From assembly GCA_963920635.1 (NCBI GenBank), contig OY987308.1:8002225-8066224 (forward strand): DNA of 64,000 nt, in the 5' to 3' direction. The notes beneath the pieces were generated by a model, which was not told the DNA's origin, searched no databases, and saw only the letters and a program-made list of their open reading frames with translations. The position numbers and the translations under genes are program-made. Shown here in pieces: positions 6,075-53,104 of the stretch. Positions within the stretch are counted from its first letter, which is position 1, and the number at the start of each line of letters is the position of its first letter. This DNA comes from Pseudeuparius sepicola (lineage: Eukaryota; Arthropoda; Insecta; Coleoptera; Anthribidae).

Positions 6075-8220
6075 CGCCTGTACCTATATTATATACTATA
6101 CATTAGACATAAGCGTCTGTACCAAACAAAATAAAATAAATGAAAGAGATGCAAAGAAGTGTAACTAAAAAGAGATTTCCAGTATGGCCTTCTGAAACCA
6201 TCAACAGTAAGGAGTTTAAGAGCAAGAATAGAGTGGTACATAGATGCAGCCCGGAGTTTACGTCTGTTTTCCATATTAAACCACCTTCCAGCTCTCAGTT
6301 TATAGGAGATAAGACCAAATCCTCTAATGCTGTAAACAAATCTTAGGCACGACTTCTGAAGCCTCTCGATGCGAATCCTGTCGGACTGACACAAGCGTGG
6401 ACTGTATAGTGTATCACCGTAGTTAAGGTGTGATAAAACCAAACACTCAGCCAGCCTTAATTTCAACCTCTCAGGTAACATATGCCTATGAGGGTAAATT
6501 AACTTATGCGGTACATATTTTAGCTGTAATATGTTTAGCGGTCCTCAAATCAGAATCCACCATCACGCCCAAACTTCTAACAATCTCCAGACGTACAATG
6601 CTGTTTTCGCCAAATTCAACCTTGATGCTTTAACACATCTCACTCCTGTTTTTACCAAAAATAATTAGAGAACTTTTGGCATGGTTAATGTTGAGTTCGT
6701 GCTTAACATTTTAGTGTGGGCATCATTCGCTTCTGCAGGAAAAAAAGAATAACACAATTGCGTATCCTCCGCGTACATGTATGTAGTACAGTTCTGCAGA
6801 CAAGAGGCAATGTTACAGAAGAGTGTGGACCCCAGTGCCGATCCCTGAGGCACCTCAGATCTAACTAGCCCCATAGGTGACTGTCCTGTCATTTGTAACA
6901 TGTTGCATTCTTTTCGCTGAATACCAGAGATGATTCGGAAAATGTAACGGAATACTGAAATCATAAGCTGATTGATCCTATGGAACGCCTTCGAATAGTC
7001 GAGCAAGACTAAGGCAGATGTTACGTAATATGTCGTCGACCAGATCCATCAAAGGAGATACGCAGCTAAAGCCCTTCCTAAGTCCGAATTGCTTGGAAGG
7101 TAGAATATTAAATTCACTTAAATGCTCCCGAATTTGAGATGCCATTATTTTTCGAAGACCCTCGATAATGGCGAAAGTAAGGATATAGGGCGTAATTGAG
7201 CGTAAGATATCACTGTGGACTTCTTAGGAAGAGACTTTCTACTGTTCTGGACATTTACTTTCCAAGAGACAAGAATTGATCAGATGGGTCAGAAAGGGAA
7301 AAATATATGGGCAGCACATAAGCAACATACTTGAATTAATATTGTTGGGGTCATAAGAATTCAACTTGATTTCAGATAAATAATGGAATTTAAATGACGT
7401 CGACTCTGTAACCTTACGATTATTATTATAGAAGTTTAAAAACTCATAATCTGGAGGAATATCAGTAAAGGCCTGCATAAACTCACGATTAATAGCTAAG
7501 GGATCTTTCAGATTTAGAGGAAGGGAAAAACATTTAGACTGCTTGGTAATATGAAGTTGGTTCAGTTTTAACCACAGAACTCTGCTACTAGTGCCATGCC
7601 TCCTGAAGCAGTCATTAAGGAACTCATGTTTTTCGCGTTTAATGGCATTTTAGTGACTTTATTGAATTGCTTATAGTATTCCCAATGTGCCGGTTTTTTA
7701 CTGATCCTAAATCGATTATAAGCTCTGTCCTTCAAGCGAATCATCCGCCTTATTGTAGCTATAAGCCATGGGGGATTAAACTTACGAACAATAATATCTT
7801 TAATGGGGACCACCATTAAACAGGAGATCACCAAAACACTTTAAGAGTAATATCGTCAATGTAAAGAATGTTATGGAATGTTGTTAAATTCAATAGGATA
7901 TTTAGGCGATTTCTATCCACATTTGTCAGATTTCTAGTTCGTATTTTGCGGGGTTCTGATCTAAATGTCAAAGCTCTGAAAGAAAAGAAATTTGATGAAA
8001 CGTTAGATGATCTGCAGTGTCAGTTCCAGAAGTAAAATGTTCATATCATTGAAAATCATTATTAAATCTATAAGTGTCGCTGTGGTGGGGTGTTAACCAA
8101 GTTGGCGTATCAATTATCTGCTTAAGATCAAAATTCTCGTAACAAGAATTAAGTCTGGAGACTTTTTTCTTGCCTTGCAATAATTCAACCGAATTATCCG
8201 CTCTAAAATACCTTAACATA
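6075..8220 (-). pseudogene. decayed non-LTR retrotransposon (LINE), 3' part
   Basis: Minus-strand fragments in order from 8220 down. First comes the end of an endonuclease-like domain (LRYFRADNSVELL near 8200). Next is a linker with RMIRLKDRAYNRFR (7568-7834), then a pre-RT segment (7239-7478). The RT core follows with LDYSKAFHRI, EVPQGSALGS and a Tyr-Ala-Glu-Asp variant in place of the catalytic YADD (6665-7006). The C-terminal segment has HLNYGDTLYS and IERLQKSCLRFVYS (6089-6481). Frameshifts and stops separate them. The order is that of CR1/Jockey-type LINEs. The 5' part lies beyond the BEL element at 13508-13797, so the LINE was split by that insertion. Confidence 0.75.
8164..8220. repeat. 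direct repeat (left copy) flanking the BEL element
   Basis: About 56 bp of LINE endonuclease sequence ending in CCTTAACA is repeated with about three or more differences at 13508-13563, on the other side of the BEL/Pao element. It is far longer than the usual 4-6 bp target duplication. Confidence 0.7.
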
Positions 8221-8761
8221 ATTTTTTGGTTCATCGTAGCCGGTTTTTATCGTTTAATTACATGTATTTTGTAGATTTATAAACAAATAAGTATCACTAC
8301 AACGCGAGGCGGCGAAACTACGCATCGGCAGCTGATCAGCGGCCCAGCTCAATGTCGTAATAGGAGCAGCGGAGTTAAGAGCAGCGGAGTTCCGAGGAGA
8401 CTACGACTGATCCACTAGAACATCGGTACGAGGCTTGTAGGGCTGACCGGGCATCGCTGAAAAACGCCGTGGTGTCGAGAAGAAGGCGCGCCGCCATCGG
8501 GAGGGGAGTTCGTACGCGGTACCTGGAGCTCGCTGAGGAAGGGACGACCATTGTCACCTTGCAACGTGTCGCAACGCATACGAAAACGAAAATTACAATC
8601 TACTAGAGGCCTGTGAGTCCGTTCCTTTAATAAATTTCCTACATAAGTACCTATCTATTTTCTTGACTTTATACCTACGAACTTTCTGTACTTTTACCTG
8701 TGTTCAATTTGCAATCATTTTCTTGCTTCTTAAAAATTCATACTTTTTCAATTTAAAAAAA

Positions 8762-10150
8762 ATGCAAACCGAGGAGTTCCAAGGCCTCATTCGCAAACGT
8801 GGAGCTGTAAAACAGCGACAAATCATTTTCAAAAAATATTTTTATGAATTTCAAAATGCATCAAAAAATATTTTGCTTTCGGATATTGAAAAACACACGA
8901 TCCTTGAGCTAGAAATGAGCTTAGAAAAGCAGAAAAAACTTTTCCAAGAATTCGAACAAATTCAAAACGAAATAGAATCTTTAACGGATGACATTGAACC
9001 TCAAATTCTCGAGAGGGAATCTTTTGAAAATAATCATTTTTCCTTAAGTGCTGAATGCAAATCGTTCATTTAAAAGTTTTACGAGGAAACTCAACGTCCC
9101 TCGTTTACAGCTAAGAGCTCTGGTGGCTCCGACTACGAATCCACGACAAAATCAGGCAATCGTTCAAAAATGGAGTTCAATATAAAACTTCCTGAAATAA
9201 AATTGCCAAAATTTACCGGGTCTTATGAAAACTGGTTAGAGTTTCGAGACACTTTTGATTCTCTTATCAACAGAAATACCACTATAAGTGATATACAACG
9301 ATTTCATTATTTACGAGCTGCCGTGGAGGGGGGTGCTGCGCAGGTTATACGTTCGATCGAGTTTTCTTCCGAAAATTATAACGTAGCTTGGGAAACCTTG
9401 CTCCAACGCTACAACAATGATAACATTCTTGTGCATAATCACGTCAAGTCGATTTTTGAATTTCCTTCAATAACCAGAGAATCATCTCTGGATTTACGAA
9501 AAATGTTACATGGCGTGACTAAGCACTTACGTTCCTTACAGAATCTAAACCAACCAGTTGAACACTGGGACACACTCTTAGTGTATATCTTAAGTCATAA
9601 GTTAGACAAAACGACGGCAAGAGAATGGGAGCAGATAAAGGTAAGTTTGTCTTCAACTCCTGATGAAAACAAAGTTTTAAACAAAGGGACAACTAGTTCA
9701 AAGTTGGCCACCTTTGATAACTTTAAGGCTTTCTTACGAAATAGAGCTGACTTTTTAGAAACCATTTCCTTGTCAAAGGAAACAAAGGGTCAGCCACATT
9801 CATACCAAGCTTCAACTTCTTCTGTGCAAACGAGAATGTGCATCTTTTGCAACAAACCCAATCATTTTATACAAAATTGCACTGACTTTGTTAAACTTTC
9901 AAGCAAAGAACGTATAAATCAACTGAAAACGCGAAAACTTCGTGTTAATTGCCTAAGGGGTACTCACCCTCTTCAGAATTGTTTAGCGGGTAAATGCAAA
10001 AAATGTAAGTCCAATCATAATACTCTCTTGCACAACGATTTTCAATCTCTTTCAAGTACAAAACCGGAGAACCCGCTTTCTGAAACAAAAGGGTGTTTTC
10101 CGGAAAGAATTCTTCAAGTTCAAATAATGTACTTCTTTCGACGGCTGTAG
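8762..10150 (+). pseudogene. gag: BEL/Pao gag with one internal stop
   Basis: The ATG at 8762 (MQTEEFQGLIRKRG) opens a frame that meets a single TAA at 9071-9073 and then continues in the same frame through 9170-10150. This is therefore one gene with one nonsense codon rather than two genes. The second part contains the DUF1759-type gag domain (KLPKFTGSYENWLEFRDTF; AVEGGAAQVI) and then two zinc-knuckle-like clusters: MCIFCNKPNHFIQNC and a CLRG/CLAGKCKKC segment. Gag packages the genomic RNA. The frame is lost near 10090, where the protease continues in another frame. Confidence 0.8.
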
Positions 10151-27118: not shown

Positions 27119-27577
27119 CCCCAGTACAACGACCTTGCATTTTTTTGATACATACAAATGTAAAACTTTGTGAGTGCCTTTTTTGCGAGGAGTCCGACAA
27201 ACTTTCGAATGCGAAAATTTTCGGCGCTGCTGCGTTTTCGAATGCTCAATTCCTAAAATTGTCGATATGACGTCACTATGACTCTCCGTACATACAAGTT
27301 TGATTTTTTTGAAATTTGTTTAGTAAAGTTAATTAAAAAGTAGCGGTCAACTTGTCCGACAAAAATCATGCTGCGTATGGGGTGTCCACCACCCTGAAAA
27401 TGTCAATATGACGTCACTATTACTCCCCGTACATACACGTTTGATTTTTTGGAAATTTGTTTAGTAAAATTAATTAAAAAATTGTGGTCAAGTTGTCCGA
27501 CAAAAATCATGCTGCGTATGGGGTGTCCACCACCCCGAAAATGTCGATATGACGTCACTATGACTCTCCATACATAC
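27119..27577. repeat. left TIR with 141-bp tandem units
   Basis: Contains three TGACGTCA boxes at 27268, 27409 and 27550, spaced exactly 141 bp. Each lies in a repeated module with CTCCGTACATAC and TTGTCCGACAAAAATCATGC. It matches the right TIR in inverted orientation nearly throughout. The modules are good candidates for transposase-binding or promoter sites. Confidence 0.9.
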
Positions 27578-28052
27578 AATTTTAACTTTAATATTGTTTG
27601 ATTCAAAATAAAGTACTAATTGTAAAAAATATGTGTCCGACAAATACACGCTGGAATTCTAGTGGTTTAACAAACTTACTCCTGGCTATCCTAATCAGAT
27701 ATACTATCAATTTATCGACTTTAAAATAGGTATAGTAAGAAAATGACATATGACATATTATTGATGACATATGACAGAGTGACATATTATTATAAACTAT
27801 ATAGTCATAAATTTTTCATAATTAGTGAATGTAAGTACTGAAAATAATTTTTCTCAAAATATTCCTATATTGTATTTGAATTTACGCGCCACAGTTTCAC
27901 ACGAACCACGTGACTAAGACAGTCTCCAACGACGCCAAGCCGGAGCATCCAGTCACATGTTTGTATATCTAAGAAGTGCACGCATCGATTGAATTTTTGA
28001 ATATTTCGGAGTGTTTATTTCAATGTTTTTAACATTATTTATCAAATAAAAA
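27578..28052. promoter_or_regulatory. 5' leader of the transposon gene
   Basis: Unique sequence between the TIR and the first ATG, with no coding frame. It should hold the promoter and 5' UTR. GTCCGACA recurs once more near 27630. No clear TATA element decides a start. Confidence 0.35.
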
Positions 28053-28479
28053 ATGGAGTGTTTTTTGTGCAGTGTTTTGAGTGAAAATCCAAATTGTAGG
28101 ACAAAAAGAGAGGAAATAAAACAATTTAATCCGGAAATATTATCTATGTGTAAAAAGTTTTTGAAGGCTAGAAAATATCATGGCCATAAATATAACAACG
28201 TGGTCCTGCCTGATGATCACATTGATACTATTATAGGATATCACTCGACCTGCTATAAGGATTTTGTTGTTAAAAAGAAGTATTTGATAGATGAAAGGTA
28301 AGACAGAATAATTATATTTTTTTAATGTTCTTGAATATTATAAATACATACATATAAATTTATTTTTTAAATATCATTTAATATTATTGAAATATTATTT
28401 GATACGGATATTAAGTTAAAAATTAGTAAATAATATACATGTGCTCCGTTCTCTACGCAGCATATTTATATATACGATG

Positions 28480-29051
28480 TATACACGGTGTTTCAGCGGA
28501 AACGTAACAGGCTCTTAAATTCTTGCATCCTTTTTTTAATCGAATGTGTTAAAAACATTAACAAAGATTATAAAAGTGATTTTATAAAAAAGAAGTTGTC
28601 CTTTCATTACTTACGGCCGCCGACCACCACTTTCGGCTTAATTATTTAAAAATACCAAGCAGTAAATCTAAAGTCGATCGATTTCCGAAAATCATATGCA
28701 GGTGTATAGAGAATTGAGAGACATTTCCAAAAATGTGCGAAATGAACCCCCTTCCCATTTAAATTTTTTGAAGGGGTTCAACCCCCGCTCAGGGGGTTGC
28801 AGATAGACCTATCAATTTTATGCCAAAAGATGTCCCCCTGCCAAACAAAATTGACCTCTTTTTGCGTTATTCCAAAAAAACATTTTCCCGGACGTTATAG
28901 AGCCTGTTACGTTTCCGCTGGAACACCGTGGGACAACTTCTTTTTTATAAAATCACTTTTATAATCTTTGTTAATGTTTTTAACACATTCGATTAAAAAA
29001 AGGATGCAAGAATTTAAGAGCCTGTTACGTTTCCGCTGAAACACCGTGTAT
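28480..29051. mobile_element. MITE with about 120-bp TIRs, inside intron 1
   Basis: The arms 28480-28600 and 28932-29051 are near-perfect inverted copies beginning TATACACGGTGTTTCAGCGG. An extra internal copy of GCCTGTTACGTTTCCGCTG lies next to the right arm. No coding capacity. It was inserted between exons 1 and 2 of the transposon gene, so it should be spliced out. Confidence 0.85.
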
Positions 29052-29113
29052 ATGTTAATATGATGTATTAGTATGTGTACTACACTATACTAATGCCAAC
29101 GAATATATTGTGT

Positions 29114-30343
29114 ATATACAGTGTGTATCACTTTAAGTCGAGACAATTCATTATTTTTTAACGGGTTCACCGATTTTCAAATTTTTTTTTAAATATATTC
29201 TACTTTAAAAGATCTACAATTTGACACTAACCTTTTTTTAAATTGCTTTATTCCACGGCCTACTACGATCAAAAGTACACCCTCAAAAACGGCAAAAGTA
29301 TATTAGGCATTTTTTTAGGAAAAAAACGAATAGCACAGTCGCATTAGTTACACCCGAAAACCCCATATACCAAATTTCACTGTTATAGGATATACAGGGC
29401 GTTCACAAAATAGCTTCAAACACAGCGAAAATACGATTTTCCAGAGTACCCTGTACAAACACCGAAAGATATTTTAAGATTATTTCTTCACAGTTGGATT
29501 AGCACTCAAATGGCCTATCAATTCTCACAATTTCATTATCCTGTCTTATACAGGGTGGTCACAATAAAAATTCAAAAATTGAAAAAAAAAAACGATTTAT
29601 TTTCTACGTGTTTTTTACAATTTTTTTTTATTTTTTTGTAACTCACAACTAAACTAAGCATAAACAATATTAAATTTTGGTATTTTCAATAAGTCATTGA
29701 CTTAATGTTACCCTGTATCATTTTTGTAAAAAAAGGTTGGAAAAATGTATTGTTGTACAGGGTGGACTTATTGAAAATACCAAAATTTAATATTGTTTAT
29801 GCTTAGTTTAGTTGTAAGTTACAAAAAAATAAAAAAAATTGTAAAAAACACGTAGAAAATAAATCGTTTTTTTTTCAATTTTTGAATTTTTATTGTGACC
29901 ACCCTGTATAAGACAGGATAATGAAATTGTGAGAATTGATAGGCCATTTGAGTGCTAATCCAACTGTGAAGAAATAATCTTAAAATATCTTTCGGTGTTT
30001 GTACAGGGTACTCTGGAAAATCGTATTTTCGCTGTGTTTGAAGCTATTTTGTGAACGCCCTGTATATCCTATAACAGTGAAATTTGGTATATGGGGTTTT
30101 CGGGTGTAACTAATGCGACTGTGCTATTCGTTTTTTTCCTAAAAAATGCCTAATATACTTTTGCCGTTTTTGAGGGTGTACTTTTGATCGTAGTAGGCCG
30201 TGGAATAAAGCAATTTAAAAAAAGGTTAGTGTCAAATTGTAGATCTTTTGAAGTAGAATATATTTAAAAAAAAATTTGAAAATCGGTGAACCCGTTAAAA
30301 AATAATGAATTGTCTCGACTTGAAGTGATACACACTGTATATG
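29114..30343. mobile_element. giant hairpin MITE, arms about 580 bp, loop 70 bp
   Basis: The left arm 29114-29694 and right arm 29765-30343 are almost exact reverse complements, starting ATATACAGTGTGTATCACTT. Any transcript of the intron would fold into a very long double-stranded RNA. Related sequence (half of such an element) appears near 22326-22690. Confidence 0.9.
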
Positions 30344-30376
30344 TATGTATGTGTGTGTGTGTGTGTGTGTATGCAT
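30344..30376. repeat. GT microsatellite
   Basis: A GTAT/GT dinucleotide run directly after the hairpin MITE. Confidence 0.9.
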
Positions 30377-33300
30377 ACACTCTATTTTTTCAATAGAAAT
30401 AAAACGAAACTAGCGAAATAAAAATTTGAATGAACAATTATTTAAAAAAATTTATAACAAATTTTTTTGAAATAATTTTCATTTGGCAAATTTTTTTAAA
30501 ATAATTTTCATTTGCCTTTTAAGCTGTCAACTATCGTCAGCTGATGAAAATACTTCTGGCACAATTAATTTTTCTGCTGCTTCAACTTCAAGTTTGCCTA
30601 CTTCAGTACCAACGACATCATGGTTAGTTTATAAAATAATGTTTCTTCGGGAACAATGTAAATAATAGTACGATATTTTAATGTGCAGTTCAATTTTTAG
30701 CGATCACACTGCTGCTACACAGGGAGACCAAAGTTTCTGCGAACTTTATGGCAATGAGACTTATGAGTGAGTACAACTTTTACGTGATTAAATGGATTTT
30801 ATGTTTATGAAAAATTGAAAAAAATATTTTATACATCGAAGAATTTTTTATCATGATCTGAATGAATTTTCTTATTTGAATAACTCCAGATTCGACATGA
30901 ATTCATCTTTTTTTTACAGAAATGAAGATACCATTCAAGCAGATGACACTGATACGGTTGAAGAAGGACATGTTATGGATACAGAAGAAAATGCAAATGA
31001 TGAAGCAGGGCATGATTGCTTTTATTGCGGTAAACATTGCATTACACGCAAAGGTCGCAAAATATTTTGCATACGTAGCAAGAAGAAAGCGAGAATTTTG
31101 CAAAGGATTAAAAAGTATGCCACTGAAATGAATGATCTGGATATGCTGTTAAAAATTGAGGCAGAAAACAAGAATGCTACAACACACCTTTACTATCATA
31201 ATACGTGCCAAACTTCTTATTTTGGAAAATTTGCAAATAAACAAACCAAAGCAAAAACCAATACGCAAGAAACTATTCGCAATATTCACAAAGAAGCACG
31301 TGGAAGATTATTTCAATATATCGAAGAGGAAATTATTAATAATAAAAGAATTTTCTCTTTGACTCACTTGAAACATTGTTTCATAACTTTTCTAGAAGAG
31401 TTACATGAAATTGCAGGTTTGGAAAGTGATTCGCTGTTCAATGTATACAATATAAAAACCCATTTGGATAAGCAATTCAAAAGGAATATTCGCTTCATAC
31501 ATTTGAACAAAAAGTTGTATATTATGTCAGCGCAATTGAACATCCATGATGCCTCTGATGAACAAATTCATGAACTTATATTTGAACAAGAAGTTGTAGA
31601 ATTTGCTTTGAAATATCGATCACACTTATTAGAAATAAAATCGCATCCTTTGCCTGAATATTTGAATAACGAAGCATTACAGAAAGGTGAATGTGAAATT
31701 CCTAGATGGTTGCGTTTATTTTGGACAATTACACTAAGTGGCATGAATGGCAAACATAATGATCGGATTGATAGGTTGGCTTCGACTTTTTCTCAAGATT
31801 CTATATACGCAGTGAACAGGGGTCGCATTAAGCCTAGTAAACACATTTTATTAGGAATCACAATGAAGAGTCTAACAGGTAGTGAAAAAATAATCAATAT
31901 ATTAAACAGGTTTGGATATTGCATTAGCTATTCCACTCTCGTGGAACTGGAAACATCGGCAGCTTATTCTTCTGTCTCGAATAAAACATTGTGTCCTTCA
32001 GGGATTTATCCAACAAGTATACTACCTTCTGGAGTAGCATGGGATAACTTTGATAGGTTTGTAGAGACTTGCGGAAAAGGAACAGTTGGAAAAGAAACTT
32101 TGCACGATACCGTTGGTATTATCTACCAGAGTATACCCACTGAGGAAGAAGTTAATTTAATACAGTTGACAGATAATAATCATAGTTTTCAAAATATGGA
32201 CAATGTTTTGGTAAATATTCGCGATGACAGCGGTCGTAGAAAAAGATCTTTTGAGCCAGAGTATATCGACAATTTGCAGAATGCTAAGCAAAGTCGTCCA
32301 GAATTTTGGCAGAGCAGTATTGCATTATTAGAAAATCCAATAAATATGAATACTTTTAAGACAATAAATTTTTGTTGGTTGCTTTCACACAAACTCCAAA
32401 TATCAAATACGCCCATGTGGGTTGGATATAATTCTCAAAATTTGAAAGATGAAAGTGCAATCCAGAAAATCGAGTATTTGCTGCAAATTAATGATTCTCC
32501 CACGGATCCGGCAGTAGTTAGGGAGACTCTAAGAAGAAGTTTGCAGATAGCATTAGAGTGTGGAAAAACGTATTACAATGTGACATACGATTTAGCGATG
32601 GCAAAAATTGCCTTGCGAATACAATGTACGGAAGATGAATTTTCAAAATTATTCATTCACTTCGGATCATTTCACACAATGATGTCGTATCATAAAGCTG
32701 TGGGAAAATTTATACAAGGATCAGGGTTAGTCAATTTGTTGATAGATAGTGAAATTTTGGCAAATGGTTCTGCCAACACTTTTTTAACAGGAAAACATTT
32801 CAATAGGTGTCGAAAATTTCTCATGCTATTGTCGCTTGCGCTGCAAATTTTGCACTTCGAGAGATTCATGATAGCGATGGAGTATAGTACGTCAGACATA
32901 GAATTCGTTAAAACACATCTTCTTAATTTAAATTCTGCCAATGCTGTTTCTTCAGAAATAACTGATATTCGAATAATGAACTTATTTAACAAATATGAAA
33001 ATTTCAAAAACGAAACGCTTAAAGGTAAACATGGCAAAACTCCACAGGTTTATATAATGTATGTAAAACTTGTTGATTATTATCTGATGTTAGAATATAG
33101 CATTCGCACTGCGGATTTTGAACTTTACCAATACGTATTGCCGAAAATTACTAACATATTTTTTACTATGAATCATCATAACTATGCCAGATATATGACC
33201 GTTTACATAAATTAAATAAAATTGAAGAAACGCATCCTGGATTGTTAAATGACAGTAAACAGTGTTTTCTAGGTATCCGCCGTACTTCTAACCCGTTTTG

Positions 33301-35394
33301 CAGAGTTCCGATTGACTTAACCTTGGAACAAACTATTAATGCAGACGCCGCTTCGAAAGCTTCTGGTGTTATTAATCTAACAGATTCTTTTTCAGCAAGG
33401 CAAAAATGGTCTGTCACACATGCGATACGTACTCATGCAATTTCACAAATTTTAGAGTTTTGCGATATGAAAAAACCTGACGACATCGTAAAAGATTTAA
33501 AAAAATCAATAATTAGTGAAGGTAAAAAAAAATTAGATTTATTACTAGAACATATTAAAAGTTGTACCAATCCTTTTTCAATAGATTTACTTGAATCGCA
33601 TTTATACAATATTTCATCTGGTCAAACCGTAAGCAACGACGTATATGATTTCTTGTCTTCAGTAGAATCAGTTGGTGAAGAACAACGTACCAATTTCGTT
33701 TCAGAGTGCTATACCACACCAGAAAGATTCGATCAAGCTATTAAGAAGAATAAACTAATAAATTTTGAATCTAATAACACAAAGAAGGTTAAAATTGCTG
33801 GAAAAGTCAAAGAAATTAAAATACAAAGGGATGTTTTCGGCAGATTATTATACGCATCACTGAAAAAGAAAATAAATTTAGAACAGGTACTATGTTATCC
33901 TCTGGGTCCTATTTCTTTCTCTTTTTGCCATTCAGATGGTACTATTTGTAAGACGCAAAAATCTGTAATTATCGACATTTTGAAAGCAGAACAACCACAG
34001 GATATTCAGGTTCCAGAGGCAGATATTCATATTATCGATGGATTTTATTTATTACATACCTTGAAAAATGTACCCAATAGTTATGGCAAAATATCTGAGT
34101 TAATTTTCAAAATCATTATAAACAATAGAAAAGAGACACACATAGTATTTGATACGTATCCTAGACCTAGTCTTAAAGACTACGAACATGATTTGAGAGG
34201 GCAAGAAGAACTTCATTTTGACATAAAAAATTGTAATAAACGTTCTGTTCAGTTTGATAAATTATTAAGGAGTATCAATTTCAAGAAAAAATTCGTTGAA
34301 TTTTTAATAGAAGACTGGGTCAGCGATAGGTTTGCTCTTTTACTCCAAGATAAAAAAGTAATGTTAAATTACGACAAATGCTATTCTTATCAGACTGTTA
34401 ACAATAGAATGATACGAGTAATCGATTATAACTTTACGTGTTTTCATGAAGAAGCAGATACTAAGATCGTTTACCACGTTTGCCAATTACATGCGAATTA
34501 TCGCGTTGAAGTTCACTGCACTGACTCGGACATTCCAGTTATTATGCTCTCAAATTTTAAATTTCGGCAAGGAGAAACTGAAGTTATAATAAATTTAAGT
34601 ACGAGTAAAAAAAAAATCGTACCTACATATTAATGCTATCCATAAAAATCTTGGGGACATGATGTCACGTTCTCTTGCAATTTGTCAAATTTTTACAGGC
34701 AACGATTTTAACCCGTCGTTTTTCCGTAAGGGGAAGAGAAAGCCCTTCAATATTTTAAAAAGCAATGCTAAATTTCAAGAGGCTTTTATTAATTTAATAC
34801 AAATTTCACTGTCTCCAATCAGCACCGAAACTGCACTTTTTAAAGTTATTGAAGAGTTCGTGTGTAGAATGTACTCATTAAAAACGAAAGATGACGTCAA
34901 CAAAGGTCGCTTTGAATTATTCGAAAAATCATATAAATCCTGTAAAGATTCGGAAGAAGTTTTAAAAAAAAATTCGCTCCTGCGACGCGTCAACTCTACC
35001 ACCCACCAAGCAAGAACTTTTGCAACACATTAAAAGGACACAATACATAAGCAGCATATGGTGCAATGCACATATGCGTAATCCGACGGAAGCAACTCCT
35101 GAAAATTATGGCTGGGTTTTGATCGACGGGAAATATGATATTTATTGGTTCGATGGGCCCGAAAGTCCACCATTATCTGAAATTTCATCAGAAATGTTAG
35201 GTACTCTATTAATATTAAATATCAATTTAATACTCATTCAATAACCTTCTAATATATTTTTTACTTTTGTTCTAGAATCTGATGATAGCAGCAACGATAG
35301 TGATGAAGACGACAATGACAATGACAATGATGATGAAGACTCTGATAATGATAATTATGATGATCATGTAGTTAATAATTCTGATCTACATTGA

Positions 35395-35739
35395 ATTATT
35401 TTTTTTTTAAACATAAAATACGTATTTTTTACCTTTTCATACAATAAAACATCAATATAAAAGAAAACAGATTTTTAGTTTTCCCGATTTTCCGATTGAA
35501 ATTGTTATATAATTGTAATTTTATACGGCGAATTTTATGTCCATTTAATATATTTAAATAATATACGTGAATATTTCAGGTCATTCAGTCAGAAATTGAC
35601 CAAAAGAAGTTTACAATTAGTAATGACTTGTTTTTCTCATTTTTTTGTCGGACTGACTATTTAACTCAATATATTTGTCGGACAAGTTGATATTGGCATT
35701 TAAAATACTATTATCTATCATTGTTATTTTTGTCCGACA
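35395..35739. other. 3' UTR of transposon gene and TIR-proximal DNA
   Basis: Contains AATAAA near 35443 and further TTGTCGGACA strings (35645-35740) related to the TIR modules. No coding frame. Confidence 0.5.
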
Positions 35740-36190
35740 TGTATGTATGGAGAGTCATAGTGACGTCATATCGACATTTTCGGGGTGGTGGACACCCCAT
35801 ACGCAGCATGATTTTTGTCGGACAACTTGACCACAATTTTTTAATTAATTTTACTAAACAAATTTCCAAAAAATCAAACGTGTATGTACGGGGAGTAATA
35901 GTGACGTCATATTGACATTTTCAGGGTGGTGGACGCAGCATGATTTTTGTCGGACAAGTTGACCGCTACTTTTTAATTAACTTTACTAAACAAATTTCAA
36001 AAAAATCAAACTTGTATGTACGGAGAGTCATAGTGACGTCATATCGACAATTTTAGGAATTGAGCATTCGAAAACGCAGCAGCGCCGAAAATTTTCGCAT
36101 TCGAAAGTTTGTCGGACTCCTCGCAAAAAAGGCACTCACAAAGTTTTACATTTGTATGTATCAAAAAAATGCAAGGTCGTTGTACTGGGG
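35740..36190. repeat. right TIR with TGACGTCA modules
   Basis: Inverted copy of 27119-27577. The TGACGTCA boxes are at 35761, 35902 and 36034. The second interval is 132 rather than 141 bp because a short piece (near GGTGGACGCAGC) is missing from one unit. Confidence 0.9.
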
Positions 36191-36192
36191 AC

Positions 36193-36655
36193 TATAACAA
36201 TCATTTACGACACCTCAAATAAACACCAATAGCATTCAAAATAAAATAAAATCAAATAAATTAATTAACTAGAAATAGAAAGGCAACTCAGTTGACAAAA
36301 CCCAACAAAACACAATTCAATCGCTTACTCTGTGGTCAGTTGAACGGGCAGCATACTGTACTGGGGCTCTGGTGCTGGATCTATGGCAGGCAAGGCGGCA
36401 AGGCAAAGCAAAGCGCCCAACACTTGGTGGTCGGGGTCTGCAGGTGTTCACTTAGACGCTCGCGAGCTTGTCGGCGGGTAGGACACATAAACAAACACGT
36501 TTTTCGGGGAACATTAATTACCCTAACCCGATGAATTTGAAACGAGATATTTTAAGGAAGTACTTAACATTGTATTGAATTATTTGATAAAATAAAATGA
36601 GAATTTTGGTTGGTATATACGGGGCACCTCATTGGTAACTACGGGCCATCACAAT
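36193..36655 (-). repeat. 3' LTR of Ty3 element, proximal part
   Basis: Continues the LTR after the DNA-transposon insertion and matches 52487-53104, except that about 175 bp present in the 5' LTR (mainly 52686-52975) are missing. It ends TCACA, next to a polypurine tract. Confidence 0.9.
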
Positions 36656-36668: not shown

Positions 36669-37159
36669 TTTGAAAAGGAATTATGATATAATTACTTTTC
36701 TGTTAATACGATCGTGATTCTGGTTCTCTTGATTTGATTGTTCTTACTTCTTTCCTTTACTTTCCCACATTGAACTGACCTCTTACATATTGAACTGAGT
36801 TGCTCTTATGCCTTTAAAATACTATGCTTTGTTGTTTCCCCTATAAAAAAAAATTATTTTCTAACATACCTACTCTCTACAACTACTATCTACTAACATC
36901 TTATTGCTTCTTATAATACAATGTTACACAACTTAAATCTAAATTTCTCAACGATGCACTTACACTTAAAACACGCGAGCTTTCTCTCATCGTCACTCAC
37001 TGTTACTGCGTCTTCTCCTCCTCTCCCGACTCCTTTTTCAAGAATTCATGGTCGTATAACTTACGACTCGAAGTTTCCTCACGGTGCTGGCGGTGCCTCA
37101 ACCCCAGTAATGCTCCAGTCTCTGCTCCATGTACCATTCGGTGTGGTACCATTGTAGCT
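36669..37159. other. Ty3 internal noncoding 3' region, part 1
   Basis: Noncoding DNA between the polypurine tract and the errantivirus insertion. It continues at 44771. The last four bases AGCT are the left target duplication of that insertion. Confidence 0.6.
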
Positions 37160-37345
37160 AGTTACGAAGGGAGATTGAGCGAAGATCTTTTTTAAAAAGC
37201 CAGAACTTTATTTGGCAACGTACAAACAGTGAATATCCTGTATGACATGGGAACAAGTGTTTTTATACAATTAAAAGCTGATAATGTAAAATAAAAGATG
37301 ACCGTGGGAACTGGTGCCAGCACTGCGGTTTCTAGGAACATAACT
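37160..37345 (-). repeat. errantivirus-like 3' LTR
   Basis: Pairs with 44585-44770. AGGGGAGG on the minus strand at 37346-37353 is the adjoining polypurine tract. Confidence 0.9.
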
Positions 37346-37354
37346 CCTCCCCTG

Positions 37355-39043
37355 TTAGTTTGAGGTTCCAGCAGGAAATCCGATCGGAACCGATTGATCC
37401 TTGATTTCTTTCTTCTTTCTTGATAGAACCATTGAAATCTTCTTTAAATTTAGGCAAATTATTAGAATGCATATAACAGAAATAACAGTCCAAATTGGCC
37501 AATTGATTGCAGAATTTTCGGTGATGTCTTCTAAATTGATTGGATTGATTGTTTTTACGTACTCGTTCAATTGATGCAGTTTTTCTAACGGAACGTGGTT
37601 GATGCGAAGTGGTTTTCTTGAGGGTTTTGCTAATTTTCTTGAATTTTCTTCAATTTTTGGTAAAAATATTGGTTTTTCTGGTTTGCTTTCTTCAGTATTT
37701 CCAAATTTCAGTGACTTGTACTCGATGCTGCTGTTCTGCGGGATTTGAACCAAAACTTTTCCTTGAATAGATTTGAATATTTCATCAGGACATTTTGTTT
37801 TAATTGTGATTGATATATTGCTGATTATTATTAAGAACTCTTCGTTAATTTTATTAAAAATCATTGATGTTTGCTCAATGGGAACTGGAGAACAGGAATT
37901 TCTTCTACCGTGGATTAAATTTGATATGCAGTCTTCTCTCGGGTCCCAATTAAGTTCTTCTTGGTCGCAAATATACAGGGTGTCTTGAAGTGGCGAGCAA
38001 GGGTATTCCATATATTGCAGTGATGCTTCTTCCAGAGCTAAATAAGGTTTATTAGGAATGAGTATGGAATTTTCATTGTTAGGAATAGGGAATAAATGAA
38101 AATATTGGTAGATTTTGGGAAACATAATTGGAAATTCTATGGCAAATATTAATTTATTATTTGAAAAGTAGCAGTTTGTTTTCACTATTGAGTACCAGGA
38201 GTGAACATTTATTTTTAAAATTTCGCTTTTAAGATAATGGTTTTCTAATTCGTTCAAAATTTCTTTTAAATTGTCTACTGTTAATATATCAGGATGAGTA
38301 ACATGTAATTTGGAAAATGTAATTGCCGATTCGACGTTATTTAAAAAGTTCATAATAATATTAATGTTTAAAGAGATTTGATCTAAAATACTGGATATTG
38401 ATACATAATGAACTATTTGATCTGAAATACTTTCATTATGGATTTGATTGATATGTTCAGTAATTTTCTGCTGGTTTTTGATAATTGTGGAAAGTGTAGA
38501 TTCGTATTTTCCAATTAAATTATTTGATAAAGAAATTTGAAAATTAGCATTTTTTATTATTTTAGCTTGATTCTTTTTTAATTGTATAATTGCGTTGTCG
38601 TATTTTTCAGCGTCAGAATAATCTAAGGTTCCAAAAATCCATTTTTGTATCGTTCCACCAAGGTTGAATAATCCACTTTTTTGCCTATTATTAGTGTTAG
38701 AGAGATTTATATTTTTAAATTTTCGTGATATTTCCGTTATAAGTGGTTCAATATTTTTGTAAATATTTATTAGGTTTAAATTATAAAGTAATTGATTCGA
38801 TACGAGAGAATGATTTAAGTTTTGATAAGTTGCTTCTAAATAATCAATTTGTGACTTTAAAACAGATAAATTTATGTCGTGCAGAAAAACATGTTTGTTA
38901 GTAATAATTTGAGCTGTTCCTAATTTAAATGGTAGTATTCCGGGAGTACTGTTAATGTCATGTATGTGAATTTGTTCAGTCTGAGTCGATGTTTGAATTT
39001 GTATTAGGATGGGAAGTAGGATAAAGAGAGTCAAATTCTTCAT
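37355..39043 (-). CDS. env: errantivirus-type envelope (F-like) glycoprotein
   Basis: 562 residues with an uninterrupted frame. A signal peptide lies at the N-terminus (MKNLTLFILLPILIQIQTS). A long ectodomain with several heptad-like stretches follows. A probable fusion-peptide region sits near residue 120 (GLFNLGGTIQKWIFGTLD), preceded by RQKS, where a furin-type R-x-x-R would be expected; the cleavage motif therefore looks degraded. A transmembrane segment lies near residue 525 (WTVISVICILIICL), followed by a short basic tail. Such proteins resemble insect-virus F fusion proteins and let errantiviruses move between cells. The gene ends just before the polypurine tract, the usual last position. 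Confidence 0.85.
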   Translation of the reverse strand: MKNLTLFILLPILIQIQTSTQTEQIHIHDINSTPGILPFKLGTAQIITNKHVFLHDINLSVLKSQIDYLEATYQNLNHSLVSNQLLYNLNLINIYKNIEPLITEISRKFKNINLSNTNNRQKSGLFNLGGTIQKWIFGTLDYSDAEKYDNAIIQLKKNQAKIIKNANFQISLSNNLIGKYESTLSTIIKNQQKITEHINQIHNESISDQIVHYVSISSILDQISLNINIIMNFLNNVESAITFSKLHVTHPDILTVDNLKEILNELENHYLKSEILKINVHSWYSIVKTNCYFSNNKLIFAIEFPIMFPKIYQYFHLFPIPNNENSILIPNKPYLALEEASLQYMEYPCSPLQDTLYICDQEELNWDPREDCISNLIHGRRNSCSPVPIEQTSMIFNKINEEFLIIISNISITIKTKCPDEIFKSIQGKVLVQIPQNSSIEYKSLKFGNTEESKPEKPIFLPKIEENSRKLAKPSRKPLRINHVPLEKLHQLNEYVKTINPINLEDITENSAINWPIWTVISVICILIICLNLKKISMVLSRKKKEIKDQSVPIGFPAGTSN

Positions 39044-39280
39044 TTTGGGTAGCCTGCAATAAAGGGGGCTTTCTTAATTCTTTTATATGAATTATTTCGG
39101 TTTTATTGGTCCTGTCATTTTTGATTTCTACTTTATTGTTCTCAACTAGTTTTGTAACCGTGTAAGGACCTACGAATTTATTTAGTTTTTTATTTCTGAT
39201 ACTGTAAGGGTTCTTTTTATAAACCTATTGATTAATTTGAAATTCGTTATTAGAGTTTCCTTTAATATTGGTTTTCGAAA

Positions 39281-40825
39281 TTACCTTTTCCTTATGGGTT
39301 TGCATTTTTCCTGTACTTTCTGATAGACAGAGATTAGTTTATTGTTGTGATTTTCCACATAATTTGTATAAAATTCTTTGGGGCTGAAAATTTCATCGGA
39401 ACTTCGCAAATTCGTATGTCCGAAAACTAATTCAAATGGTGTAAAGTCTGTTGCTGAATGAATTGAATTATTGTAACCTATTACAGCGTAATTCATGAGG
39501 TCTGATTCTGAGGGATAAATTTCTTTTAAAACGCGAAGGTGCTCAATAATTGTAGAATGAAAACGTTCTACTACGGCATTGGATTCGTGGTGTCCGGGCG
39601 TAGTAAAGTGCACGTTTATTTTATGTAATTTGAGAAGTTCTTTAACCGTTTCGTTGTGAAACTCTCTACCACTATCTATTACTAGATTGCGAGGAATTCC
39701 AAACTGAGCGAAATATTTTACTAACGCGTCTGAAACACTTATAGCAGATTTTCCTGGAATTAAGATAGCTTGACCGAATTTTGAAAATGCGTCTACTAAT
39801 GTGAGATAACTTTTGTTGTCACAATTAAAAACGTCTATGTGTACTTTTTCGAAAGGTTTTGAAGGAGTGTCAGTTAAGACTAAAGGGACATAAGGAAGTT
39901 TCCTTGCGTACTTAGTCTTTTGACAGATTTGACAGGCGTTAATAAAATTTGTTACTGATTTTTTCATATTTGACCAAAAATAGTTTCGTTTAAGATATTT
40001 AAGAGTTTCTTCGATTCCTCTATGGTTACATTTACCTTCATGGTGATTGCGGATTAATAAAATTTGTTCTTCTAAATTTTTGACAGTATTGATAAGTTGC
40101 GTGCATCTTACTAGTTTTGGACCATTTTTATTGAATTTTTCGGAATAAACATTAGTGAAGGGAATCAACAACTCGGGTTCATGAAAATATAAGTAATACG
40201 TGGTATTAGGCTGCAAATATTCTTTTAAAAATTGAAAAATTAATGTTTTGTTATTGCCTAAAGGGATTTTGACATTAAGTATTTTTTGATTTTCTAATTT
40301 TTCTTGTGACACTGAAAATTTATTTTGATTGTTTTTGAACACGTGAATTTGTTTGGCTTTATTGTTGATTATTTCGTCTAAAATTAAAATTCCATTATTG
40401 CAAACTTCTTTTGAAAGCGAATGAGGTGTTTCGTTTGAGCTAATTGAAATTGGATCTTGATCTTCCACTGAAAGTGGTGGCCTTTCGTCAGAACAAATAG
40501 AAATTGGTTTGTTTGTCTGTTTGTCTGGGGGTTTTATTTGTATGTCTGAATGAATGATAATTTTAGGTTTCAGTTTTTGAGATAAAGGAGTTGAGTTACT
40601 GTTTTTTGGGGACGATGGTCCAGGGTTTTGTTGGGTATAACTAAAGTTTTCGGGATTTTCAACGTACTGTTTTAGAAATTGATAACTTTCTTGGTTAATA
40701 TCGCCTGGATTGTTAATTACTGATTCATTTTCACCAATCATATTAATTTCGATTCTTGAAAGGGCGTCCGCATTTGAATTTTGTTTTCCTTTTTTATAAA
40801 CAATTTTATAGTCAAATTCTTCCAA
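39281..40825 (-). pseudogene. pol: errantivirus-like integrase (3' part of pol)
   Basis: The frame from about 40825 starts in the end of RNase H (EEFDYKIVYKKGKQNSNADAL), then a Ser/Pro-rich linker. The integrase zinc finger follows (HHEGKCNHRG, CQICQKTK: H..H..C..C) and then the catalytic core with HIDVFNCD, DSGREFHNE and the Glu of HHESNAVVERFH. It is in another frame from the RT upstream: the RNase H region 40826-41200 has at least two frameshifts. The integrase part itself is open and ends next to the env leader. Confidence 0.85.
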
Positions 40826-42326
40826 CTTTAGTCGCCAAAGGACTAATTTAGAATTCGGTTCTTTAAGGTTAAATAACCAGGTTAGGGGTCTATGATCTGT
40901 ACAAATTGTAAAAGTTCTACCATATAGGTAAGCCTAAAGTGCTTACAACTCCAAACAATCGATAACAGTTCACGTTCAATTGTGCTGTACCGTTGTTCAG
41001 ATTCATTCAAAGTACGTAATGCGTACGCCACTGGTTTATCGTGTCCGATGGTGCCTTGAGAAAGTACGGCGCCTAGTGCAATGTTTGATGCGTCAGTTGT
41101 TAGGATAAATTCCTGGGAAAAGTCGGGGAACTGTAGAAGTGGGTCATTGCAGAGTATCTTTTTACATGTGTTAAAGCTTTCGAGAAATTTGTCGTCGTGA
41201 ATTACTTTTGCATTTTCTTAAGACAAAGCGTTAGAGGTTTGGTAATTTTTGCGAAATCTGGAATGAAGCGTCTGTAATAACCTAAGAGTCCAAGGAAGGA
41301 TTTTATATCTTTTTGTGTTTTCGGAATCGGGTATTTAATTACTGCTGCGATTTTTTCTGGGTTTGGCTTAACGCCTTCGGGTGTTATGATATGTCCTAGA
41401 TAAGAAACAGATTTTTTCAAAAATTCCAATTTATCAAGTTGGAGCTTAAAGTTTGCGGATCTTAGTCTATTAAAAACACTTTTTAATCTTGTCATGTGTT
41501 CTTGTAACGAGGTGCTGAAAATTATTATATCATCGAGGTAAACCAAACATATTTCATTATTTAAGCCTCTAAGGACATTGTCCATAACTCTTTGGAAACT
41601 ACTCGGAGCGTTCTTTAGCCCAAAAGGCATACGAACAAACTCGTAGTGACCTCCTTGAGTTGAGAAAGCGGTTTTTTGAATGTCATTCGGATCAATTTGG
41701 ATTTGGTGAAAGCCGGAAGCAAGGTCTAAGGTCGTGAAATAGTTGGCACGTCCAAGTCTGTCTAAAATATCGGTGATATTGGGAAGAGGGTATTTGTCGT
41801 CTATCGTCTTGTCGTTAAGTTTTCTATAGTCTATTACTATACGCCATTTCTTTTTGCCGGATGAATCTAATTTCTTGGGGACTACCCATATTGGACTACT
41901 CCAGGGTGAAGTAGATGGTTTTATGATGCCCTGCTGAAGCATTTTACTGATTTGTGATTTTACTTCTTCGCGGTGTATTTCGGGAAAGCGATAAGATTTT
42001 GTATAGATAGGGGTTTCGTCAGAAAGATTTATTTTGTGATTTATTTCGTTTGAAAAACTTAATGGAATGTTTTCACAAAAGAAAATGTCGCGGTAATTAT
42101 AACATAGTTTACGAATTGCATTTTTTTCTTCTTTGTTACAGTGATCAAGTCTCAAATTCTTAAGATTTGCTTTAAGTAAGTCGTCTTCTTGTTTAGAAAT
42201 TTCGAAATTTGTTTCCATTTTGTCCATAAAATTTACTTCGTTAATGTCTAATAGTTCTAGGTCAAAAGGTTCTGTTATAGTAATTTTATAGGGTTCTGTA
42301 TTAGGATTTAATATAGTTGATTGCAA
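40826..42326 (-). pseudogene. pol: errantivirus-like reverse transcriptase and broken RNase H
   Basis: The open part 41202-42326 (374 residues) runs from [17 protein letters not shown] through WVVPKK, the palm with [10 protein letters not shown] and the catalytic [11 protein letters not shown] to the thumb ([15 protein letters not shown]). It ends at a frameshift near 41205. RNase H sequence continues in another frame (TTDASNIALGAVLSQG, SEQRYSTIERELLSIVW) to about 40930, where a second frameshift occurs. Normal errantivirus pol is one frame. Confidence 0.85.
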
Positions 42327-42816
42327 AATAATTTTTTATATTTACTACTGCTTTTGGAGATTCCAAATTGGTGTCAAAATTGATATAGTCAAGTATGCCT
42401 AAACCATTTTCGTAACAAACAGGAATTTTTACAACCTTTTGAGTTCTCGGAGGAATGACTATGGTGTGATTACATTTTTGGAAATTTTTTGAAGGCATAG
42501 TGTGATCATAATTCAAAGGAATTTGAGCATAGGGTGTGACTAAAAAATCTTCATTAGTAAGGACGTTTGCTTGTAAAAGTTTGAGTAAATCCATGCCAAT
42601 AAGTCCATCGTATTTCGTGGAAAAATCATACAAATAAAATTTATAAAATTGATTTGTGTTAAAATTTTGAAACATGGGAATTATTGCAATTTTATCATGG
42701 GAAGTGACTGCATGTGAGGTTTGTATACTAAAATTTTTGTTAAGAATTGAATTTGGATAGAATTTGTAAGCTAAGTCAGGGTTTATTAAACTGCGTGAAC
42801 TGCCTGTGTCTATCAA
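42301..42816 (-). CDS. pro: retroviral-type aspartic protease region
   Basis: Begins with the catalytic [24 protein letters not shown], the second conserved block, lies near residue 80. It overlaps the start of the RT frame by about 26 bp, so the full product was probably one pol polyprotein reached from gag by frameshifting. The N-terminal few codons lie upstream of the Met given here. Confidence 0.8.
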
Positions 42817-42899
42817 AAATTTTGCGTCGATTTCGGGAATGTATATGTAGGGTAAATAGCTAAGTAAGTGATTAAGGTCTATTATTACGTCATTCGTTT

Positions 42900-44245
42900 T
42901 TGAGCTTGGTCTATGGGAAAATTTGCGTCTTGTTCTTGGAAGTTATTGTAGTCTTCTGTAAAGTCATATGTGGTGTTAGATGTCGAGGGTTCGGGTTCAT
43001 AGTAATCGGGGTATACGTCATAATGAGAGTCGTATTCAACGGAAGTTTCGGGTTGAGCGTGATTCTGGGAATAGGTGGGTTCTTCGTACTCTTCGATATT
43101 GTGTAATTGGGAATAATGTCGTTTTTAGGTGGAGGTTGGGAATTTCTAGTATTGGTAGACATCGGTTCGGGTCTATTATTGGGAACTTGACCTGTGGGTC
43201 TAAATACATTTTGGTTACCAAAAACGTCTCTGTTTGAAAAGAATTTTTGATTATAATTTGGTCGTGGTTGGATATTTATTGGTTGTGACGGGAAATGTTG
43301 CCGAAATTGTTGCTGGGGAAAATTTTGTGGTTGAGAAGGAATGTAATTTTGTTGCGGGATCTGTCGTTGTTGCGTAGGGTATTGTTGCTGGGGGTAAGAT
43401 TGTGGAAAAGCGTTAAAAAATGGTCGCGGTTGATAGTGAGGAACATTTTGACTGTAGGAGTTTGAAAAACTTGCTCTTGGAATATTAGGTCGTGAAAATA
43501 AGGGTTGTTGTTGAGGTGTCCTAGTTACATTTCTAAAAGATAAAGTTTGTCTTTGATTAAGTAAAAAGTTTTCTTCTTCGAGCACATATTAAATTGCTAA
43601 TTCTATTGAATTTGGGTTTCTAAGCCGAACCATATCTTGTATTCTGCCGTTTAAGCCTCGTAGAAATGTTTTGAGAGCTAACTCGTCGTAGTTTTTATTT
43701 GTAATAATTTTTCGTTTGCTGGAATATTCATAGATTTTAGTTTAGAACAAATTGAGCTTCTGGATTTTTGAATTCTTTGTCCAAAAATAGAAAATGATTC
43801 GTTTTTAAATGGTTGCATTATCATGAGATCTTGCACAAGGCAATCTAAGTTTCTTTGATCACCAAATGTAAGACGGAGTAAAGCTTTCAAATCATCCCAT
43901 TTACGAACTTCGGGTCTCGAACCTGCAAGGATTAGGGCGGTTCCAACTAATTTACTAATAATTGCGCGGAGCAGAAAACCATTAAACGTATCTTCGGGGT
44001 TTTGATTTGCAAAATTAGAATAAGGAGAATCGCAATGTTCGATAAATATCTAAAGGTATTTTCGTCGCCATTAAAGTTCGGAATTGTATCAATAAACAGT
44101 TTCAGTAACTGATAATTGACTTGAGAATCATTATTTCCGGGCATTTCGTTAGTATTATTATCAACTTCTAAATTAGTTGAATCTAAAGCTAAATTATTTA
44201 AAATATCAATTAATTCGTCTATTTTGACAGATTTAGTTTTTCTAA
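42900..44245 (-). pseudogene. gag: errantivirus-like gag, frameshifted
   Basis: Starts near 44240 with a KTKSVKIDELIDIL segment and MPGNNDSQVNYQLLKLF. It then passes through LKALLRLTFGDQRNLDCLVQ (43678-43890) into a Gln/Pro/Asn-rich C-terminal region (42911-43585). No zinc knuckle is visible, as is usual in errantivirus gag. At least three frame changes interrupt it. Confidence 0.75.
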
Positions 44246-44570
44246 ATTAAAAACGATTTTCTTAAAAATAACTTAAATATGTGTCTTGAATATTATATGC
44301 CTTAATATTCAGAGGAACACGATTTTATACGTAAATCCAAACTAAACCTAACTAGGAAAAATCATATTCTCTGAAAAACCTAGGGACTCCACTGTTTAAT
44401 TTGCCACAGAAAAACACAAGGAAATGATACACGGATTGGCTCTTACCCTTGGTCGTTCTGGAAGTTCTGGGTCTTCTCTGGATCTTCTTCGAGGTTCTAG
44501 TAGTTGATGGAAAGCGATTTTCCGACGACACGAACGCGACGCGATGCGCAAACTGTGTCTTTCAACTATC

Positions 44571-44585
44571 CGGAAGACTGCGCCA
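44571..44585 (-). promoter_or_regulatory. errantivirus-like primer binding site (tRNA-Ser type)
   Basis: Directly after the 5' LTR on the minus strand, (T)GGCGCAGTC matches the 3' end of insect tRNA-Ser, the primer used by several errantiviruses. The T is shared with the LTR end. Confidence 0.7.
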
Positions 44586-44770
44586 GTTACGAAGGAAGAT
44601 TGAGCGAAGATCTTTTTAAAAAAGACAGAACTTTATTTGGCAACGTACAAACAGTGAAAATCCTGTATGACATGGGAACAAGTATTTTTATACAATTAAA
44701 AGCTGATAATGCAAAATAAAAGCTGACCGTGGGAACTGGTGCCAGCAGTGCGGTTTCTAGGAACATAACT
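44585..44770 (-). repeat. errantivirus-like 5' LTR
   Basis: Pairs with 37160-37345. ATAAAA-like strings and a short U3/R/U5 are compatible with a promoter here. Differences from the partner include GAAGGAAG/GAAGGGAG and AGTATTT/AGTGTTT. Confidence 0.9.
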
Positions 44771-51760: not shown

Positions 51761-53104
51761 TATGGCGCGCACCTTTGTTTTAGATGTTAGTTGGTCGAGC
51801 GGTATGTTTAAAGGTGGTCCATAAGTTAATTTATTTTTGGTGTGGGCCTAAGGATTAACGGAAACAACAGGGGAATTTTAATACATATATTGAAAAAGTA
51901 AATGGTACGCATATGGCGTATAAAATATACAGGTTACGAATTACACAGTAAATGAATTGAGGATGCACAGACGTGAACAAAATGAATTATTAAAATATTC
52001 CTAAGTAAATAAGAATCAACAATAAATAATCAAATCAAAATAAGAATCAACAATAAAGAATTTTGTGCAAAATAATTATCTATAAATTTTAGTAAATGGA
52101 TTTAAACCTAAGTGGCGAACAATACTGGCTTATAGCATAAACTGGTAACAAAACCTGCAGAAATAGTACGTGAATGTAGCTCAAAATATTCCAAGAAATA
52201 ATACCAAAATTATTGGCACACAAGTTAGTTAGCCTGATCACACAAACGATAATAAAATTATGTAAATTCTTAAAAATGATTCGAAATTGATAATAGACAC
52301 AAGATTATTAAAATCACTTGAAATTGGCACAAAAACGTATTTAAAAATACCCAAAAATTTAGCGTAAAATATTAATATTGGACTTAATACGGCACTGCTC
52401 TGCTAACAGCTTTTCAAATACCCAAAAATTAGCGTAAAATATTCAGAACTGTAACGCGACACTGCTTTAAAATATGACAAAATATAACAATCATTTACGA
52501 CACCTCAAATAAACACCAATAGCATTCAAAATAAAATAAAATCAAATAAATTAATTAACTAGAAATAGAAAGGCAACTCAGTCGACAAAACCCAACAAAA
52601 CACAATTCAATCGCTTACTCTGTGGTTCAACGGGCAGCATACTGTACTGGGGCTCTGGTGCTGGATCTATGGCAGGCAAGGCGGCAGACTCTAGATGACT
52701 TCTCGGGCAGTACTTCGCCCAACACTTGGTGGTCGGAGACTTCTTCTCATTGCTGGTTCGGCAGTATCCTCTTTTATATCAGATTGGGACATTGTTTTCG
52801 CCTTGATTCGGGATCTGCAGGTGTTCACTTAGACGCTCGCGAGCTTGTCGGCGGGTAGGACACATAAACAAACATGTTTATCGGGGAACATTAATTACCC
52901 TAGCCGATCTGTCTAATATAAACAACATGGTTTTTCGATTTAATTTATTACCCGTTATTCGGCGGCCTGGTCCCTAACCCGATGAATTTGAAACGAGATA
53001 TTTTAAGGAAGTACTTAACATTGTATCGAATTATTTGATAAAATAAAATGAGAATTTTGGTTGGTATATACGGGGCACCTCATTGGTAACTACGGGGCAT
53101 CACA
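51761..53104 (-). repeat. Ty3 5' LTR, uninterrupted (1344 bp)
   Basis: Intact partner of the split 3' LTR. It holds the empty target site of the 9.07 kb transposon at 52480-52493 and an extra roughly 175 bp around 52686-52975. Target duplication GCTG follows at 53105-53108. Confidence 0.9.

Follow-up and report, generated by a model that had tools for sequence, protein, structure and literature searches.

We analysed a 64,000-nucleotide stretch of the genome of the beetle Pseudeuparius sepicola (contig OY987308.1, positions 8,002,225 to 8,066,224; hereafter the window, C10:8002225-8066224), which contains a 9.1-kb transposon at 27119-36194. The element as a whole is best explained as an AcademX transposon that moves as DNA by cut-and-paste and encodes a DDE core and an XPG nuclease in one protein, a reading to which we give a probability of roughly 0.83. 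A first-pass annotation of the same DNA had already proposed a mobile, nearly complete transposon of Academ type, and this was upheld, its mobility and near-completeness being borne out by other genomic copies and a preserved empty site. Copy comparison showed a 3-bp duplication on insertion and several near-identical copies. New here are a structural interpretation of the two protein domains, the acids conserved in each, and the family's exact target rule.

Residues of the protein are numbered by L020, a copy on contig C8 that lacks about 1.25 kb upstream and is open for 1,188 codons (about 1,174 in exon 4, the remainder running into intron 4). Relatives of the same layout were common, with 85 proteins in one search and 139 matches in a search with the central domain, and they included proteins from insects, a limpet, a hydrozoan and a fish. 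The alignment used below had 60 rows, L020 and 59 of the 85 matches; the 26 left out comprised 25 that were incomplete or were excluded on length or coverage, together with P0045, a match of full length filed under a bacterial metagenome-assembled genome but probably from its clam host. A scan of viral contigs for relatives gave 63 pattern matches, none of which was confirmed.

The predicted core, an RNase H-fold DDE transposase domain, lies on the plus strand at 31683-33480 (L020 residues 1-600, coordinates mapped from L020). Its predicted fold matched DDE transposases well above other structures, although Foldseek by itself missed the DDE fold, and it resembles that of the P element transposase (6p5a, 6pe2), with 8% of residues identical in the structural alignment. 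Searching solved structures by sequence returned no relevant relative (best E value 1.8, to a TPR protein; otherwise annexin, at E values of 0.4 to 1). D303 (window position 32589), H331 (32673), D546 (33314) and E550 (33326) were kept in all 60 rows, D124 (32052) in all 57 rows with a letter at that position, and D121 (32043) in 55 of the 57; the first acid may thus be D121 or D124, with D303 as the candidate second, and the last may be E550 or D546. Fold and acids together lead to the prediction that this central domain is itself the DDE transposase core, rather than the uncharacterised accessory to a PIN/XPG transposase that had been supposed. The Pfam family PF20231 (DUF6589) matched residues 606-795 of the window reading frame (approximately L020 318-508) at 17.7 bits, below its cut-off of 27, a stretch that takes in the last part of the core together with the inserted helices. 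Its matches are partial and fall in the core's second half; among 12 homologues scanned the match was above cut-off in two (P0037, P0049) and below it in three, with none at an E value of 0.01 in the other seven. Placing DUF6589 within the DDE core is a lead rather than proof, and would hint at what is done by a Pfam family that has no assigned function and of which no mention turned up in the literature searched.

Downstream, the predicted XPG/Exo1/FEN1-like nuclease domain lies on the same strand at approximately 33956-35102 (L020 residues 760-1142). Structure prediction of the C-terminal part, compared with FEN1/XPG nucleases as had been advised, gave an XPG/Exo1/FEN1-like fold whose closest solved relatives are Exo1 and FEN1; together with seven conserved acids this agrees with the PIN/XPG nuclease first suggested. 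Those acids, D787, D825, E925, D927, D949, D951 and D1009 (window positions 34037, 34151, 34451, 34457, 34523, 34529 and 34704), stand in an order that resembles the FEN1 set, and the order was complete in 53 of the 60 rows; among the remaining seven, three lacked the last acid, two the last five and one the first, while one departed at two positions. The window copy retains every one of these codons undamaged, as it does those listed for the DDE core, H331 included. Exo1, FEN1 and XPG nucleases share 12-14% identity with the element's domain, which differs from them in being fused to a transposase core. The good conservation of the XPG fold and its seven acids might also suit an arrangement in which the transposase is the XPG domain by itself, with the central domain serving just for structure or DNA binding. 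We regard this as very improbable, given that the central fold matches DDE transposases so far above other structures, that its acids are invariant, and that Academ is named among the superfamilies with a DDD/E transposase in the relevant passage of PMC9587614.

As the first-pass annotation had recommended, copies with both terminal inverted repeats (TIRs) were sought in the host genome (769 Mb, 16 contigs) and their termini and duplications compared. The TIR search gave at least 14 matches, representing at least seven loci including the window, and four loci besides the window had both canonical ends (L015/L016, L017, L018 and L021/L022). In all four, the family ends are TAGTCCCC...GGGGACTA with a 3-bp direct repeat immediately outside, namely TTG (L015/L016), CAA (L017), GTT (L018) and TCA (L021/L022). 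From one TIR to the other L017 was collinear with the window copy, and L021/L022 and L015/L016 were likewise collinear except for insertions. This collinearity, with canonical ends and matching duplications at three loci, contradicts the notion that TIRs and gene are separate repeats nested by chance, a parting that other copies might have revealed and did not; nested fold-backs do exist in intron 1, but we give the notion practically no credence.

The remaining two loci were incomplete within the stretches examined. On C8 the left end of L020 is truncated and its right end and flank are duplicated, at L020:7328 and L020:9636, some 2.3 kb apart, as a local tandem duplication; on C9 a single end was found. 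L018 is a 3.5-kb internally deleted derivative in which element positions 1-2642 are fused to 8194-9072 between perfect GTT duplications, a structure that suggests either non-autonomous movement or deletion after insertion. In the copy at C10:11718199-11735384, exon 4 is broken by an insert of about 8 kb (L015:4963 to L016:2964) that contains several long reading frames and is probably a retroelement, and 10 bp of the element (window 31539-31548) match on both sides of it.

In the window copy the TIRs, paired over 27119-27578 and 35740-36190, measure 460 and 451 bp and are 98% identical, in keeping with the 455 bp or so first estimated, and their outer 259 nt are 100% complementary between the two ends. 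The left TIR occupies 27119-27578 (plus strand), by the family rule without the outer TAGT, and the right TIR 35740-36194 (minus strand), including the terminal ACTA (36191-36194), then TAACAATC. The ends had earlier been read as CCCCAGTAC, giving CCCC ends with a TAT duplication, whereas the termini of the four two-ended loci read TAGTCCCCAGTAC / GTACTGGGGACTA. The window copy has kept ACTA on the right and lacks TAGT on the left, and by the family rule its target would have been TAA, with 6 bp missing at the left junction. Alternatively, both ends may have been aberrant at insertion, with CCCC to the left and GGGGAC to the right, in which case the TAT duplication would be genuine and nothing would have been lost afterwards. 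The letters do fit, TAT standing on both sides in that register, but it is off the family register and requires both ends to be aberrant as well as a chance restoration of TA beside GGGGAC. A single 6-bp loss is enough and is the simpler account, and we consider the aberrant-end insertion improbable.

The transposon splits one copy of an LTR-like (long terminal repeat) sequence, of which a second copy (51761-53104) runs unbroken across the insertion point. Comparison of the two repeat copies placed the empty, pre-insertion site at 52475-52495 (plus strand), in agreement with the empty site previously noted near 52480. Between both repeat copies stand minus-strand open reading frames with reverse transcriptase, RNase H, integrase and envelope-like Baculo_F matches, and for this reason the pair behaves as the LTRs of a retroelement nest. 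Within it, a minus-strand retroelement at 37157-44770, with Baculo_F-like, integrase and reverse transcriptase matches and 189-bp direct repeats (95% identical) at its borders, is nested in the retroelement whose LTR carries the transposon.

Translation and GT..AG introns confirmed the five-exon plus-strand gene previously outlined, which encodes a pair of CxxC..HxxxC clusters, an extended central region, a C-terminal region and an acidic tail. Exon 1 (28053-28297) carries the first, putatively zinc-binding cluster and is followed by exon 2 (30524-30622), exon 3 (30701-30766), exon 4 (30920-35200), which holds the second Cys/His cluster, the DDE core and the XPG domain, and exon 5 (35276-35394), which carries the acidic tail and the TGA stop (35392-35394). 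By a simple pattern, 7 of 59 homologues had two clusters and 25 had a single one; the other 27 had none, and many of these lack N-terminal sequence. The acidic tail was present in 36 of the 59 by the criterion used. Comparison with other copies confirmed the three frameshifts reported earlier and placed all of them in exon 4. Two of them, the loss of 4 bp at 33206 and an additional A at 34607, were window-specific among the copies compared, one other copy differing from the window copy by 2 at 34607; the third, an A-run at 34963 that is 2 bp short, was common to the window, L017 and L021/L022 and not seen in L020 or L015/L016. The window copy is a recently active element now broken by three frameshifts and an eroded left end, and could be mobile only with protein from another copy. 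Intron 1 (28298-30523) contains two fold-back repeats, at 28480-29052 and 29114-30342; the perfect arms measure 122 nt, and those of the long palindrome 280 and 212 nt. As these repeats recurred, whole or in part, in six of six other loci, their entry probably predates the spread of the family.

In its features the element fits the nuclease-bearing AcademX lineage of the Academ superfamily. P elements make 8-bp duplications and are not known to have an XPG domain, and the 3-bp duplication does not fit the P superfamily; CACTA/EnSpm elements, which also duplicate 3 bp, have ends starting CACTA or CACTG, which the ends TAGTCCCC do not match. The AcademX nuclease is of XPG type. Passages of PMC10045372 give AcademX duplications of 3 or 4 bp and AcademH duplications of 9 or 10 bp, tied to nuclease and helicase. 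The 3-bp duplications at all four two-ended loci, the nuclease predicted within the transposase protein from its fold and seven acids, and the DDD/E core predicted from fold and invariant acids are features shared with AcademX as there and in PMC9587614 described. No helicase was matched by Pfam in the window reading frames and the 12 homologues scanned, nor among the precomputed Pfam domains of the 120 listed of the 139 central-domain matches, and this, together with the 3-bp duplications, does not fit AcademH, which belongs by name to the same superfamily. The lack of a helicase is as described for AcademX in PMC10045372, and with relatives of the same layout so common, the poorly described branch once envisaged was not supported. 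Other passages mention AcademH helicases in fungi (PMC10799480), Academ in all arthropods examined (PMC6327564), and many bivalve Academ elements, in a paper that uses the Academ DDE/D domain from Yuan and Wessler 2011 (PMC10294476); curated bivalve elements there average 5.6 kb, in contrast to the 9.1 kb of the present element with its intron repeats.

Seven copies of the 9-bp palindrome TGTCSGACA occur in the window, all within the end regions of the element, where 0.22 would be expected in the window. The shorter GTCSGAC occurs at 10 sites in the element, on the left at 27192, 27354, 27495 and 27635 (27192-27643; the last three within TGTCSGACA) and on the right at 35647, 35677, 35732, 35817, 35949 and 36111 (35647-36117); judged by sequence, these are possible transposase-binding sites. 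The N-terminal Cys/His clusters and these subterminal repeats would bring protein and ends together, and the DDE core would cut the transferred strands and join each 3'-OH end to a target phosphate, the two phosphates lying 3 bp from one another. Cutting or trimming of the opposite (5') strand, or of flaps, might fall to the XPG domain, so that two active sites would divide the work. Tentatively, the P-like DDE core may cut and join the transferred strand while the Exo1/FEN1-type metallonuclease of the same chain severs the other. It is conceivable, at somewhat short of an even chance, that both domains act but that the XPG domain trims flaps or resolves hairpins during repair of donor or target after insertion or excision, rather than serving as second-strand endonuclease; its nearest solved folds, Exo1 and FEN1, act on 5' ends and flaps, which counts for such a repair role. 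Academ is named for its nuclease, and the passages of literature consulted are silent on how the second strand is cut; with two active sites conserved in a single protein, a role of the XPG domain in second-strand cleavage becomes testable. Given several loci in one genome whose ends are nearly identical, a clear target rule, a confident two-domain model and listed residues, ordinary mutants can separate the roles of the two sites. In Tn7, two proteins, TnsA and TnsB, divide this labour between them. By analogy, and with similar reserve, the fused two-nuclease transposase may be a eukaryotic single-chain counterpart of the TnsA/TnsB division, arrived at through an unrelated nuclease fold.
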